Below, piece by piece: positions 1,918 to 26,212 of a DNA stretch of 32,473 nt (positions are counted from its first letter, which is position 1; every line of letters starts with the position of its first letter). The notes beneath the pieces are model-generated. The model was not told the DNA's origin. It did not search any database and saw nothing but the letters and a program-made list of their open reading frames with translations. The DNA is taken from positions 1-32,473 of the forward strand of contig JAFWMD010000075.1 in assembly GCA_017510725.1 (NCBI GenBank). The letters run 5' to 3'. Source of the stretch: Mogibacterium sp. Lineage in GTDB: Bacteria > Bacillota > Clostridia > Peptostreptococcales > Anaerovoracaceae. The translations under genes and the position numbers were made by a program.

Positions 1918-1965
1918 TAACAATATATTGACACAAAATAACGCTGTGACTACAATATATAGTGT
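1918..1965 (+). promoter_or_regulatory. Tandem NrdR boxes at the nrdD promoter
   Basis: Box 1 is TAACAATATATTGACA (1918-1933); box 2 is CTACAATATATAGTGT (1950-1965). Both match the core CWATATATWG of the known NrdR consensus at every position. They are separated by 16 bp (32 bp centre to centre, about three helical turns), which is the arrangement established for NrdR, the ATP/dATP-sensing repressor of ribonucleotide reductase genes. Box 1 overlaps the -35 and box 2 overlaps the -10, so bound repressor would exclude RNA polymerase. Confidence 0.88.
1928..1956 (+). promoter_or_regulatory. Sigma-A promoter of nrdD
   Basis: A perfect -35 TTGACA (1928-1933), a 17-bp spacer and -10 TACAAT (1951-1956). 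The predicted start near 1963 gives an untranslated leader of about 147 bases. Confidence 0.85.
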
Positions 1966-1986
1966 TCGGAAAGGAACACTATTTTT
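1961..1986 (+). other. Terminator-like hairpin at the very 5' end of the nrdD leader
   Basis: AGTGTTC (1961-1967) pairs with GAACACT (1974-1980) around a six-base loop and is followed by ATTTTTT. It looks like an intrinsic terminator, but it starts at the predicted transcription start, so it may instead be a 5' stabilising stem or cut off transcripts from further upstream. A second small stem, GCCTT/AAGGC, follows at about 1990-2006. Confidence 0.45.
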
Positions 1987-2109: not shown

Positions 2110-4386
2110 ATGAAAAGCATTATCAAAAGAGACGGCAAGGAAATGCCGTTTGATGAGTCCAAGATCTTCAACGCTATCTATTCCGCTAACAAAGCTGTAG
2201 ACGGCGAGAAGATGACGAGCATCGACTACACTTATCTCACTAAGAAAGTCGTAGAGCAGCTCGATGGCGAGACATGCACTGTAGAACAGGTACAGGACAT
2301 CGTCGAAGCAATGCTCATCAAGTATGACTGGGAAAAGACTGCCAAGGCTTACATCCTTTACCGCGCTGAGCACGCAAAGATCCGTGAAGCTGAGTCTGAT
2401 TTGATGAACATCTACAACGAGCTCACATATTCATACTCTAAAGACGCGGATATCAAGAGAGAGAACGCCAACATTGACGGTGACACATCGATGGGAACCA
2501 TGCTCAAGTATGGTTCGGAAGGCGCAAAGTACTTCGTAGATAACTACGTGCTTCCGAAAGACATCGCAAAGGCTCATATAAATGGTGACATCCACATCCA
2601 CGATAAGGACTTCTACATGCTCACGGAGACATGCTGCCAGATCGATCTGATCAAGCTTTTCAAGGACGGATTCTGCACAGGCCACGGCTACCTCAGGGAG
2701 CCACAGTCGATCATGAGCTATGCTTCGCTGGCATGCATCGCGATCCAGGCCAACCAGAACGAGATGCACGGCGGACAGTCGGTACCAAACTTCGACTACG
2801 CCATGGCTCCTGGTGTTGCAAGAACATATATAAAGGAATTCTTCTCAGCACTGACAGAGATAATCGCTGCGAAACTCGATGCAGCATATCCGGACGCCAA
2901 GGCCATCGCTGAAAAGATCAGGGCAGAAGCATCATCGCCTACACTCGCAACAAACGGTTCATACGGTGAAAAACTGGGCGAGTGGTTCGACAAGACAGGC
3001 TGGGCAGGCGGACTCACAAGAGAGCAGCTGGTAAGGTGCAGCGCACAGGCAGCAGAGGCAGCATGGGCAAGGACAGACAAGATGACCTACCAGGCAATGG
3101 AGGCTCTTATCCACAATCTCAACACCATGAACTCCAGAGCCGGCGCACAGGTGCCGTTCAGTTCGGTAAACTTCGGAACAGATACGACTCCTGAAGGGCG
3201 CATGGTCATCAAGAATTTCCTGCTCGCTACAGAAGCCGGACTCGGAAACGGTGAAACACCGATCTTCCCTGTATCGATTTTCAAGGTAAAAGAGGGCATC
3301 AACTACAACGAGGGAGATCCTAACTATGATCTCTTCAAGCTGGCAATAAGATGCAGCGCAAAGAGGCTGTTCCCTAACTTCAGCTTCCTCGATGCTCCGT
3401 TCAACAAGAAGTTCTACAGAAAGGGAGACTACAACTCTGAAGTTGCATACATGGGATGCCGCACCAGAGTAATGGCCAACAACTACGACCCTACAAAGGC
3501 TGTAGTATGCGGCAGAGGCAACCTCTCGTTCACATCGATCAATCTGCCTAGACTTGCCATAGAGTCCAACAGAGATTTCGACGTATTCTACAAGAAACTC
3601 GATGCAATGATGGATCTCGTTGCAAGACAGCTGCTTCACAGATTCAAGATCCAGTGCAGCAAGAAGGGCCGCAACTATCCGTTCCTGATGGGACAGGGTA
3701 TCTGGATCGATTCCGATAACATCGGACCTGACGACAGCGTTGCAGAGATCCTGAAGCATGGTACACTCTCAATCGGCTTCATAGGACTTGCCGAAACCAT
3801 GAAGGCGCTGACAGGCAAGCATCACGGCGAGGATGAGAAAGTAAGAGAGCAGGCGTTTGAGATCATCAAGCACATGAGAGAGGTCTGCGACAGAAAGAGC
3901 GCAGAGACAGGCCTCAACTTTACGCTGCTGGCTACACCGGCTGAGGGACTCTCCGGAAGATTCGTCAAGATTGACAGAGAAAAGTACGGCAAGCTGCCTG
4001 GTATCACAGACAGGGATTACTACACTAACTCATTCCACGTTCCTGTGTACTTCCCGATCGGAGCATTCGAGAAGATCGCTATCGAGGCACCTTACCACGA
4101 CCTCACAAACGCAGGTCACATCAGCTATGTTGAACTCGACGGCGACACAGCCAAGAACCCGGAAGCTTTCGAATCCGTCATCAGATTCATGAAGGAATCC
4201 GGCGTCGGATACGGTTCGGTCAACCATCCAGTAGACAGGGATCCTGTCTGCGGATATACGGGAGTGATCGATGACGTCTGTCCGAGATGCGGAAGACGCG
4301 AAGGCGAGCCTGTAACTATTGAGAGACTGAACGAACTTCGCATGAGATTCCCGAGCGTACCGGTACCATGCGATTGCAACCGTTAA
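2110..4386 (+). CDS. nrdD: Anaerobic (class III) ribonucleoside-triphosphate reductase, catalytic chain lacking the glycyl-radical domain
   Basis: A protein of 758 residues that reduces ribonucleotides to deoxyribonucleotides under anoxia. Residues 1-90 form an ATP-cone, the allosteric site for ATP/dATP. The ten-stranded barrel follows, with GDIHIHDKD (159-167), TETCCQIDL (172-180), GGQS (221-224) and an MGCRTR finger-loop segment typical of NrdD. The C-terminus has the zinc-site remnant PVCGYTG / CPRCGR (C714, C724, C727) and then runs on for about 30 residues to a CDC motif (754-756) before TAA. The canonical FERIRRITGYLVG radical domain is missing from this chain and is found in the next gene. 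The start has GGAGAG 10 bases upstream. Alone this chain should be inactive; with the 4556-4723 product it should be a complete enzyme (inference). Confidence 0.95.
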   Translation: MKSIIKRDGKEMPFDESKIFNAIYSANKAVDGEKMTSIDYTYLTKKVVEQLDGETCTVEQVQDIVEAMLIKYDWEKTAKAYILYRAEHAKIREAESDLMNIYNELTYSYSKDADIKRENANIDGDTSMGTMLKYGSEGAKYFVDNYVLPKDIAKAHINGDIHIHDKDFYMLTETCCQIDLIKLFKDGFCTGHGYLREPQSIMSYASLACIAIQANQNEMHGGQSVPNFDYAMAPGVARTYIKEFFSALTEIIAAKLDAAYPDAKAIAEKIRAEASSPTLATNGSYGEKLGEWFDKTGWAGGLTREQLVRCSAQAAEAAWARTDKMTYQAMEALIHNLNTMNSRAGAQVPFSSVNFGTDTTPEGRMVIKNFLLATEAGLGNGETPIFPVSIFKVKEGINYNEGDPNYDLFKLAIRCSAKRLFPNFSFLDAPFNKKFYRKGDYNSEVAYMGCRTRVMANNYDPTKAVVCGRGNLSFTSINLPRLAIESNRDFDVFYKKLDAMMDLVARQLLHRFKIQCSKKGRNYPFLMGQGIWIDSDNIGPDDSVAEILKHGTLSIGFIGLAETMKALTGKHHGEDEKVREQAFEIIKHMREVCDRKSAETGLNFTLLATPAEGLSGRFVKIDREKYGKLPGITDRDYYTNSFHVPVYFPIGAFEKIAIEAPYHDLTNAGHISYVELDGDTAKNPEAFESVIRFMKESGVGYGSVNHPVDRDPVCGYTGVIDDVCPRCGRREGEPVTIERLNELRMRFPSVPVPCDCNR

Positions 4387-4402
4387 TCAGGCGGATAAAC
4401 AA

Positions 4403-4435
4403 TTATCCACAGGGTTTTCCACAGACTTATCCACA
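4403..4435 (+). promoter_or_regulatory. Three DnaA boxes at 12-bp spacing
   Basis: TTATCCACA (4403-4411), TTTTCCACA (4415-4423) and TTATCCACA (4427-4435) are in the same orientation with exactly three bases between them. The outer two are perfect DnaA boxes and the middle one fits the relaxed consensus TTWTNCACA. CCACAG (4419-4424) can also pair with CTGTGG (4441-4446), flanked by AGGG/CCCT, so a hairpin is possible in RNA. Confidence 0.7.
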
Positions 4436-4465
4436 AGATGCTGTGGTATGCCCTAAAATAAACAA

Positions 4466-4483
4466 CAATATACATTAATATTG
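4466..4483. promoter_or_regulatory. Inverted repeat CAATAT-N6-ATATTG upstream of the small radical-domain gene
   Basis: CAATAT (4466-4471) and ATATTG (4478-4483) flank six bases, just upstream of the candidate -35. The half-sites resemble the NrdR box half CAATAT, but the spacing does not fit the NrdR consensus, so this is at best a degenerate or different operator. Confidence 0.35.
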
Positions 4484-4484
4484 C

Positions 4485-4513
4485 TTTACAAATCCCTATG
4501 CAGGGATTAGAAT
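4485..4513 (+). promoter_or_regulatory. Candidate promoter of the separate glycyl-radical-domain gene
   Basis: TTTACA (4485-4490), a 17-bp spacer and TAGAAT (4508-4513). The spacer holds the stem AATCCC/GGGATT (4491-4496 / 4503-4508). It would allow expression of the small gene without nrdD. Confidence 0.5.
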
Positions 4514-4555
4514 AATTGCGCGTCAAATAAGAAGATAACGTACGGAGGTACTGAT

Positions 4556-4723
4556 ATGAATAATAAGGTTGTAAAGAATGTAAACGGTCAGGTCGGCGAA
4601 GGTGTTGGCTTTGAGAGAATCAGAAGAATCACAGGATATCTCGTTGGAACACTCGACAGATTCAACAACGGCAAAAGAGCTGAGGTACAGGACAGAGTTA
4701 AGCACGGACTGTCCCACAACTAA
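4556..4723 (+). CDS. Stand-alone glycyl-radical domain of class III ribonucleotide reductase (split NrdD C-terminus)
   Basis: A 55-residue protein. Residues 19-51 are the complete C-terminal domain normally fused to NrdD: FERIRR, the radical motif RITGYLVGT (Gly27 is the expected radical site), then RFNNGKRAE and the ending DRVKHG. The start is well supported by GGAGG (4544-4548) seven bases before ATG. The frame is separated from the nrdD stop by 169 bases that contain stop codons, so it is neither a simple frameshift nor a read-through product. Its likely role is to insert into the NrdD barrel, where NrdG generates the glycyl radical. The closest known analogy is GrcA (YfiD), a free radical domain that rescues pyruvate formate-lyase. 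Residues 1-18 (MNNKVVKNVN...) are polar and probably a linker or docking tail. Confidence 0.92.
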   Translation: MNNKVVKNVNGQVGEGVGFERIRRITGYLVGTLDRFNNGKRAEVQDRVKHGLSHN

Positions 4724-4800: not shown

Positions 4801-5373
4801 ATGGTCGAGATGGATAAAAGCAAGGACAAGAGCAAAATAATAAGAATGTGCGGTATCGAACCGGAGTCGATAGTTGATGGCCCTGGTTTCAGGTACGTGC
4901 TTTTCGTACAGGGCTGCCCGCATCACTGTCATGGATGTCACAATCCTGAGTCATGGTCCTTCACTGAAGGATATGACATGACAGTCAATGAGATCTTTGA
5001 GGACATATGCGGCAGACCATGGCTGCGCGGAGTGACTTTTTCAGGAGGAGAGCCTTTCGAGCAGGTACCGGCGCTTCTGGACCTTGCGAAGAACATAAAG
5101 GGAGCAGGGCTCACTCTGATGAGCTACAGCGGTTATACGCTTGAAGAGCTCGAGGCAAGGCATGATAAAGATACCGATGAGCTTCTGGAAATGCTCGATA
5201 TTCTTGTAGACGGGAGATATGACGAGAAGCTTCGTAATCTGACTCTCGTATATTGCGGATCCGAGAACCAGCGCGTTATTGATATGAAGAAGACAAGAAC
5301 AGCGAGAAGGGAGGGGGATACCGGAATGGTGATCCCTTACAAGTCGGGATTCGATTTCGAGATAAAGATATAG
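4801..5373 (+). CDS. nrdG: Anaerobic ribonucleotide reductase activating protein (radical SAM)
   Basis: A protein of 190 residues, slightly longer than the common 155-175. It uses a [4Fe-4S] cluster and S-adenosylmethionine to make the glycyl radical of NrdD. The cluster motif CPHHCHGC gives C39, C43 and C46 in CxxxCxxC spacing. FSGGEP (80-85) is the SAM-binding GGE motif, and ILVDGRYD is typical of NrdG. The ATG at 4801 is chosen because AGAGGTG precedes it and it clears the terminator; an ATG at 4765 would lie inside the terminator stem. It is functionally linked to nrdD and the small radical-domain gene just upstream. Confidence 0.93.
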   Translation: MVEMDKSKDKSKIIRMCGIEPESIVDGPGFRYVLFVQGCPHHCHGCHNPESWSFTEGYDMTVNEIFEDICGRPWLRGVTFSGGEPFEQVPALLDLAKNIKGAGLTLMSYSGYTLEELEARHDKDTDELLEMLDILVDGRYDEKLRNLTLVYCGSENQRVIDMKKTRTARREGDTGMVIPYKSGFDFEIKI

Positions 5374-25614: not shown

Positions 25615-26106
25615 TTATTTAGCGACTCTGAAATCAAGTACAAGCTGATCGATATCAGGGTGCATCTGGGTCAGTTTAACACCTGCAGTTGTCAGCATCA
25701 GCTTGGATGCCTGTGTAGATGGCGTATCGGCATATTTGTCGGAGAGGTAGATGACTTCCTTGATGCCTGACTGGATTATTGCCTTGGCACATTCATTGCA
25801 AGGGAAAAGAGCCACATATATACGTGAACCGCTGAGATCCTTACCTGACGCATTCAGTATGGCGTTGAGTTCCGCATGCACAACGAAAGGGTACTTTGTG
25901 ATCTCACCCTCGCGGTCCCAAGGAAATTCGTCATCAGAGCAGCCTTTTGGGAACCCGTTGTAGCCTGTCGTGAGTATGACATTGTTCTTATCTACTATGC
26001 AGGCTCCGACCTGAGTATTAGGATCCTTGCTTCTCTTTGCGGCCAGAATGGCAACTCCCATGAAATACTCATCCCATGAAATATAATCTTCTCTCTTGGT
26101 CACCAT
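25615..26106 (-). CDS. Deoxycytidylate (dCMP) deaminase, ComEB family
   Basis: A 163-residue zinc enzyme converting dCMP to dUMP, the precursor for thymidylate. The zinc site is H77-A-E79 (HAELNAI) with P-C103-x-x-C106 (PCNEC). WDEYFMGVAILAAKRSKDPNTQVGACIV is the typical N-terminus. The start at 26106 has GGAGG six bases upstream; the upstream ATG at 26124 lies before that site. It is first in a three-gene minus-strand operon (17 bases to dapB). With the nearby dUTPase it supplies both routes to dUMP. Confidence 0.92.
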   Translation of the reverse strand: MVTKREDYISWDEYFMGVAILAAKRSKDPNTQVGACIVDKNNVILTTGYNGFPKGCSDDEFPWDREGEITKYPFVVHAELNAILNASGKDLSGSRIYVALFPCNECAKAIIQSGIKEVIYLSDKYADTPSTQASKLMLTTAGVKLTQMHPDIDQLVLDFRVAK

Positions 26107-26212
26107 ATAAACCTCCGATATCACTGCTTCGTGCCGGTAAAATAATGTTCATTTGATGTGATTTTACAACTGCAGGGAACTGTTATCAAGCCTGCAGAGA
26201 AGGGCCACATAC

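Follow-up and report, generated by a model that had tools for sequence, protein, structure and literature searches.

The class III ribonucleotide reductase (RNR) of a gut bacterium, Mogibacterium sp., and of many other anaerobes appears to be built from two proteins. On a 32,473-nt contig of this bacterium (JAFWMD010000075.1; the whole stretch analyzed is called the window hereafter), the catalytic chain NrdD ends without a glycyl radical motif, and a separate gene downstream encodes a glycyl radical domain (GRD) of 55 residues. We consider it likely that the two chains form one enzyme, in which the radical piece works in trans and is exchangeable. This reading builds on the anatomy, complementarity, conservation, selection and distribution of the two genes, from which we infer docking, activity, exchange and the evolutionary route. 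The parts of the enzyme are arranged as follows:

2110–4386, plus strand: nrdD core subunit, 758 residues, without a glycyl radical motif
4297–4383, plus strand: C-terminal tail of NrdD (REGEPVTIERLNELRMRFPSVPVPCDCNR), standing where fused relatives have the radical loop
4556–4723, plus strand: free glycyl radical subunit, 55 residues, predicted radical residue Gly27 (codon 4634–4636)
4801–5373, plus strand: nrdG, encoding a radical SAM activase of 190 residues, 77 nt downstream of the GRD gene

An initial annotation of the window had described a 758-residue NrdD that stops short of the radical motif and a separate gene, with its own GGAGG, for the missing domain. Both observations hold. Open reading frame (ORF) 2110–4386 closes with ...CGRREGEPVTIERLNELRMRFPSVPVPCDCNR, among which no radical motif occurs; ORF 4556–4723 contains FERIRRITGYLVGTLDRFNNGKRAEVQDRVKH, reads FERIRRITGYLVG...KRAEVQDRVKH, and is preceded by a GGAGG ribosome site at 4544–4548, 7 nt before its ATG. 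The two products cover complementary parts of ordinary NrdD: positions 2–711 (large ORF) and 711–744 (small ORF) of the 746 in NCBIfam PRK07111, and 1–531 and 533–562 of Pfam NRDD. On the solved chain of P. copri NrdD (8p23), the best stretch of the core corresponds to 286–705 and the small protein to 707–738. The Zn finger remains on NrdD, and the detached part comprises the radical loop and C-terminal tail only. In the alignment with 8p23, Gly27 of the small protein falls in the RITGYLVG loop. The available text of an eLife 2024 paper gives Gly711 as the radical residue of P. copri NrdD; if the numbering of the chain and that of the paper differ by 4, this would be the glycine of RITGY, and Gly27 is the predicted radical glycine of the 55-residue subunit.

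The enzyme shares with ordinary NrdD (PRK07111/NF005497, PF13597; P. copri 8p23) the ATP-cone, barrel, MGCR loop, Zn finger, adjacent nrdG and sequence type of the GRD, and differs in having the radical domain as a gene and protein of its own and a new tail at the end of NrdD. Profile searches found the ATP-cone (residues 3–89) and the NRDD domain in the window chain, whose architecture also includes the barrel, the MGCR finger loop with Cys450 and the Zn-finger cysteines. The loop Met448-Gly449-Cys450-Arg451 and other core motifs are invariant across 34 aligned split and fused NrdDs. The nrdG product scores 149.7 bits against TIGR02491 (cut-off 126.1), as a dedicated activase. The GRD sits in a separate ORF and not at the C-terminus of the NrdD chain; the window enzyme is a variant class III RNR, not an ordinary member. 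Its gene unit is larger than the span 2110–4723 first annotated, as nrdG (4801–5373) and the promoter region (about 1928–2109) belong to it.

The pair is the only reductase found in the cell. The window genome (GCA_017510725.1), probably a metagenome-assembled genome (MAG), is a draft assembly of 2.4 Mb in 91 contigs, 84.5% complete and 5.7% contaminated, whose nearest named relatives are Mogibacterium MAGs. In it, a profile search with PF13597 detected one NrdD core and the free domain. A second full-length nrdD, which according to the initial annotation would make the pair dispensable, was not found in this assembly, which at its completeness cannot exclude one. For the class I/II catalytic domain PF02867, neither the window genome nor 34 of 35 relatives from the genus gave a match; only G022 did, over a stretch of 120 positions in a bin that is 7% contaminated. 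In the Pfam libraries the 55-residue protein matches PF13597 only and not PF01228; the single PF01228 match of the genome lies elsewhere, in a 791-residue frame. PHROGs, Pfam and NCBIfam hold full NrdD models and none for a standalone domain. Pfam NRDD reaches its cut-off on the free protein and the NCBI naming models remain far under theirs (44.4 vs 764 bits), so the free GRD probably often goes unnamed.

A search for the split in other genomes, proposed in the initial annotation, found it to be far broader than one genome. Core and domain are separate matches in 41 of 47 genomes of the genus (here and in the next count the window's own is included), where the core either stops at position 531 of the profile or runs into the end of its contig; the sequence of the gene pair was inspected in 34 of these 41. 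NrdD was found in 43 of the 47 genomes, G035 and G032 holding other, fused types only, and the remaining four gave no NrdD match. Because the free domain is conserved to this extent, and matched in 29 of 35 same-genus relatives, a chance origin is excluded. Among 24 genomes from the order's other families, 7 have a match, always in a long frame (455–798 residues), that is, fused; the possibility of a recent break, also raised in the initial annotation, finds no backing here, as the break in this genus is not recent. One genus genome (G513; L284, 588 and 3288) carries two free GRD genes, one on either side of a single split nrdD.

Beyond the genus, 156 of 398 genomes sampled from the phylum (completeness of at least 95% asked for, window genome shown alongside) match the domain, and in at least 28 besides the window's own it lies, by eye, in a frame shorter than 200 residues. 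A scan of genome contigs returned at least 560 relatives; the best 80, a named set that consists mostly of MAGs, leans towards the type of the query and is no estimate of prevalence, comprise 58 loci with a free GRD beside a GRD-less nrdD, 15 with a free GRD and no nrdD in the locus, and 7 fused ones. nrdG is present in 53 of the 58 split loci, which belong to Bacillota (50), Fibrobacterota (4), Thermodesulfobacteriota (2) and Pseudomonadota (1), with one unassigned, and include Desulfovibrio and Anaerobiospirillum.

The GRD copies beside nrdD in the genus ("linked" copies, as opposed to "extra" or "unlinked" ones elsewhere) are under strong purifying selection. Over a core of 34 codons, the ratio of nonsynonymous to synonymous change (pN/pS) is 0.043 among 30 linked genus copies, compared with 0.196 among 17 different extra genus copies, 0.165 among the 73 free copies of the named set and 0.178 among 75 different copies from viruses. 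The radical glycine is kept in 30/30 linked and 19/19 extra genus copies, in every one of the 80 named loci, the 7 fused ones included, and in 79 of 80 viral loci; the one remaining viral locus did not match the search pattern.

Two trivial explanations fare poorly against these data. That stop read-through, a frameshift or splicing joins the two ORFs into an ordinary NrdD is very improbable: in 11 of 57 linked loci the two ORFs do share a frame, without an additional stop in the gap, but the frame is the same in only 21 of 57, the share expected by chance, and the window pair is out of frame. We rejected read-through and frameshifting on this agreement at chance level. Gaps between the genes in the genus span 10–304 bp, the ORF ends are conserved, and the GRD gene has ribosome and promoter-like sites of its own; with stops between the genes, tails proper to the NrdDs and no frame bias in the split loci inspected, the single continuous frame that the initial annotation had thought resequencing might reveal is not apparent. 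Seeming frames of 828–853 residues in some genus genomes were likewise discarded, as L283–L285 have separate ORFs and the length joins two matches. An artefact of assembly or annotation, or a dying gene pair, is scarcely credible. The window genome is a draft and the named relatives are mostly MAGs, yet the split recurs in strain-titled, non-MAG contigs (Massiliimalia timonensis, L043; Bacterium 1XD42-1, L046) as well as across the genus, and the strong purifying selection and lack of another detected reductase argue against decay. The two-piece NrdD of the initial annotation is well supported by complementary coverage, the adjacent nrdG, its being the only NrdD found, the lack of any detected class I/II reductase, conservation in the genus and across phyla, and purifying selection on the GRD.

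In the two-chain enzyme that we favor, NrdD would supply the ATP-cone, the catalytic barrel with the thiyl cysteine and the Zn finger, and the 55-residue subunit the radical loop and C-terminal tail. NrdG would generate the radical at Gly27. The small subunit would dock at the site that the attached domain occupies in ordinary NrdD, and its radical would oxidize the barrel cysteine in trans. Oxygen cuts glycyl radical enzymes at the radical; an excess of the small subunit could replace an oxygen-cut one and spare the 758-residue core. Such excess supply and swapping would be possible because the GRD is a separate protein, probably with its own promoter. The proposed replacement after oxygen damage, as the initial annotation put it, is consistent with extra free copies, a rubrerythrin neighbor and genomes that hold both fused and free domains.

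Candidate control elements of the unit in the window are:

1928–1982, plus strand: nrdD promoter region, with TTGACA-17-TACAAT at 1928–1956 (compared with the sigma-70 consensus)
1952–1965, plus strand: NrdR-like box overlapping the nrdD promoter (consensus set after the window box had been seen)
1959–1982, plus strand: hairpin with T run, immediately 3' of the nrdD promoter; shares positions with the NrdR-like box
4403–4435, plus strand: three DnaA-box-like 9-mers at 12-bp intervals, downstream of nrdD and ahead of the GRD gene
4485–4513, plus strand: promoter-like site (TTTACA-17-TAGAAT) lying 42 nt upstream of the GRD gene's ATG

In 28 of 34 genomes of the genus (29 of 35 rows, as G028 appears twice), the nrdD-to-GRD gap contains a promoter-like site (score of at least 10 of 12), vs 2.9% of mononucleotide shuffles; the site ends 26–56 nt upstream of the GRD ATG. 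Single promoter matches mean little, so the argument rests on this shared position across the genus, by which the GRD gene probably has a promoter of its own. The proposal that the radical subunit is made in excess draws some support from this site.

Separate supply could also serve another end. If the radical subunit were limiting and set by DnaA or NrdR, activity would follow the cell cycle and not oxygen damage. DnaA-box-like 9-mers occur in the gap of 14 of 29 genus loci compared, the window's included, and NrdR-like boxes in that of 8 of 34 genus genomes, in a set disjoint from the first. Both sets are lineage-specific and were defined by consensus patterns, however, and the other genus loci examined have neither; we regard dosage control as rather unlikely. 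The NrdR-like box in the window's nrdD promoter is identical to the consensus used, which was set after the box had been seen, and the window's GRD gap holds no such box at a score of at least 11 of 14.

Genomes that hold both forms of the domain suggest how the split arose. A fused full-length NrdD together with a detached radical domain, encoded in a frame of 99–116 residues, was found in 7 of 20 genomes, five of the seven being named Ruminococcus; the 20 were chosen through their loci, 15 with unlinked domains and 5 others. The single-contig genomes G250, G405 and G459 also hold a fused NrdD and a free GRD. Long free GRDs (L263–L277) carry about 50 extra N-terminal residues, for which the five scanned gave no Pfam or NCBIfam match above cut-off and which might act as a safety catch, as has been proposed for YfiD. 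In two further genomes (L275 and L276) the long free GRD immediately precedes a gene that looks like nrdG by eye. The route to the split would then start from a spare copy, as in Ruminococcus, and end with loss of the attached domain.

To place these events, we built a tree of NrdD cores with their tails removed, using a quick method with support from the Shimodaira–Hasegawa-like approximate likelihood ratio test (SH-aLRT) only. From 102 collected cores, partial ones skipped, ten rows were dropped (five duplicates, the rest divergent, truncated or doubtful), which left 61 split and 31 fused among 92; eleven cores called split by a motif test have radical motifs of another, fused kind and were reassigned manually. 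The tree requires at least six changes between split and fused, four of them forced by strong branches. A single split clade without L126 was rejected (p 6e-5, indicative only since the group was picked after the tree had been seen). The window's clade lies inside a group of 20 NrdDs that are all split and include sequences from Desulfovibrio and Oscillospiraceae (SH-aLRT 99), and a group spanning phyla in this way suggests transfer between them. L126 is the split sister of a fused NrdD (SH-aLRT 100). Its tail, VSHERIQRLKA, ends where FERIRRITGYL would be, so that NrdD is truncated inside the domain, and the only radical domain found in its genome is an unlinked 116-residue frame; L126 fits the order in which the spare part came first and the attached domain was lost second.

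The tails of split NrdDs were compared with the lost domain. E[RK][LIVM] at an offset of 6–9 after the Zn finger, the position of FERI, occurs in 46 of 61 split tails vs 2.1% of shuffles. The profile score exceeds that of a tail's own shuffles at p<0.05 in 17 of 61 (window tail, 0.055), and a profile-profile comparison gave P 0.039 with a probability of 1.3%.

The same history is open to another explanation, in which a free copy made the attached domain redundant, drift removed it, and dependence on two genes followed with no benefit from exchange. Repeated changes on the tree, the rejected single clade and the resemblance of L126 to a recent loss suit this account, under which lost attached domains are the expected outcome. 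The GRD gene's own promoter-like site, the extra and mobile-element copies and the rubrerythrin neighbor instead suggest a gain from separate supply, and we hold drift without such a gain to be possible but doubtful. Several points weigh against an exchangeable two-chain enzyme. The window assembly is an incomplete draft in which a second reductase may have gone undetected. Six of the 34 genus genomes have no promoter-like site in the gap (which measures 10–89 bp in five of them and 227 bp in the other), matches of this kind are frequent (9 in 3.7 kb of the window vs 4.6 in shuffles), and the sites are consensus matches among related sequences. The pN/pS values pool related pairs, with pS near saturation outside the linked genus set, and the indication that NrdD tails may be remnants of the radical domain is suggestive only.

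Extra copies of the GRD lie mainly on mobile elements. We compared the regions around all 19 extra genus copies and one linked copy (L162). Fifteen of the 19 lie in a common conjugation gene cluster, as judged by the same neighbor proteins; in a Pfam search of nine proteins from four of the regions (L144, L152–L154), PrgI, TraG/VirB4-like and VirD4-like proteins scored above cut-off, TrbC and TrbL_2 scored below it, and a recombinase also matched. In L143 (4235–5004, Candidatus Crickella) the free GRD gene lies directly 5' of a rubrerythrin gene, apart from nrdD. The remaining three copies (L150, L158, L160) lie in other contexts. Three GRDs of conjugative elements (L149, L159, L161) have an altered loop, RRVTGYLSGDLSRFNNAKRAEVADRLEHG, that retains the glycine.

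Free GRDs are also carried by viral contigs. Among the best 80 of 293 relatives kept from a first scan of IMG/VR, 75 have a free GRD with no NrdD in the locus, 3 a free GRD with NrdD, and 2 are fused by the test of our script; a second scan with another GRD query (80 of 243) gave 62, 6 and 12. The scans share 28 contigs, and 111 of the 132 distinct ones carry a free GRD with no NrdD nearby. In 34 of 36 whole viral records (30–251 kb, first scan) the radical domain alone matches, which for each record is weak evidence that NrdD is absent as none is rated 90% complete; of the other two, one has a fused NrdD and one has pieces of an NrdD core with a free domain. On a 54.8 kb virus record (G498, L211), the NrdD core lies in two separate frames beside a free GRD. 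Among ten neighbor proteins from six loci, chosen as phage-like, nine match families known from phages, namely endolysin, holin, baseplate or tail, and terminase. By signature, two of 77 viral domains share ERTRR with two Desulfovibrio loci, and 12 share RRVTGY with three Anaerobiospirillum loci; by overall identity, 59 of the 77 are nearest to Bacillota, some with RRVTGY included.

These distributions lead us to a tentative proposal, to which we give somewhat less than even odds: the NrdD radical subunit would be a mobile, interchangeable part that conjugative elements and many anaerobic phages, lacking the enzyme itself, plug into the host core to secure or revive their own dNTP synthesis, and hosts whose attached domain became redundant would have lost it and come to depend on free subunits. 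Phage and conjugative copies would thereby gain a minimal hold on the host dNTP supply with about 165 bases of DNA. Against a general phage role, only 104 of 50,697 deposited phage records match, 85 of them from Vibrio or Aeromonas, the annotated ones among the rows listed are whole NrdD, and some IMG/VR contigs may be misclassified. Plasmid records match in 29 of 72,556 cases (18 Clostridioides), and cultured phages and plasmids, of which one record each was inspected, add little to the picture. A split NrdD and a free GRD also occur on a circular Subdoligranulum record of 90.5 kb (L288, 1601–4111) that is catalogued as a plasmid.

RNR chains divided over two genes also occur as split phage RNR genes and, reportedly, as the split class II reductase of Pseudomonas. 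Breaks in phage RNR genes are ascribed to introns, inteins, endonucleases or unknown causes in the available text of Dwivedi 2013, where none separates the GRD. GrcA/YfiD and Y06I of phage T4, spare parts of pyruvate formate-lyase (PFL), resemble the free GRD as small free GRD proteins with a phage version and in activation by the enzyme's own activase, which would be NrdG here. Unlike GrcA/YfiD, the free GRD would serve NrdD and not PFL, has no PF01228 match and, in split genomes, is the only radical domain found and not a spare; bacteria with a fused NrdD and a free GRD do resemble GrcA with PFL. In the accessible portion of Andorfer 2021 (PMC8683613), spare parts are validated for PFL only and others are thought possible. 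E. coli with GrcA makes formate although PflB has lost its radical glycine, according to the part available of a FEBS Lett 2025 paper (PMC12338860), which is a close functional parallel to a two-piece NrdD. In the full-text literature searched, mostly without subscription papers, no description of a separate NrdD radical domain was found. As far as their available text goes, PMC9669993, PMC9531940, PMC11226230, PMC3019208, PMC4390871, PMC2795772, PMC11528403, PMC8463856, PMC12662201, PMC3653736, PMC12288474, PMC12386605 and PMC11194802 describe the domain as part of NrdD or leave a separate one unmentioned.

The sequences thus answer in favor of spare parts beyond PFL, for RNR, that is, for DNA synthesis itself, with the NrdD radical piece being the only one found in some genomes and apparently spare in others. 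A two-part enzyme would allow radical installation, docking and exchange to be studied with a small purified protein.

Some further features of the window were noted. The hairpin and T run at 1959–1982 look like an attenuator; a scan gave six terminator-like sites vs 3.0 expected. About 1.9 kb upstream of nrdD, at 26–193, lies the end of a rubrerythrin-like ORF (PF02915, just under cut-off), and ORF 25615–26124 resembles by eye dCMP deaminase, another dNTP gene. Near its C-terminus NrdD has cysteines at residues 754 and 756 (4369–4377). A C-x(0-2)-C pattern near the C-terminus occurs in 27 of 61 split tails vs 2 of 23 fused ones and 5.3% of shuffles, related rows included, and the paired cysteines of split NrdDs are possible redox pairs or Zn ligands.

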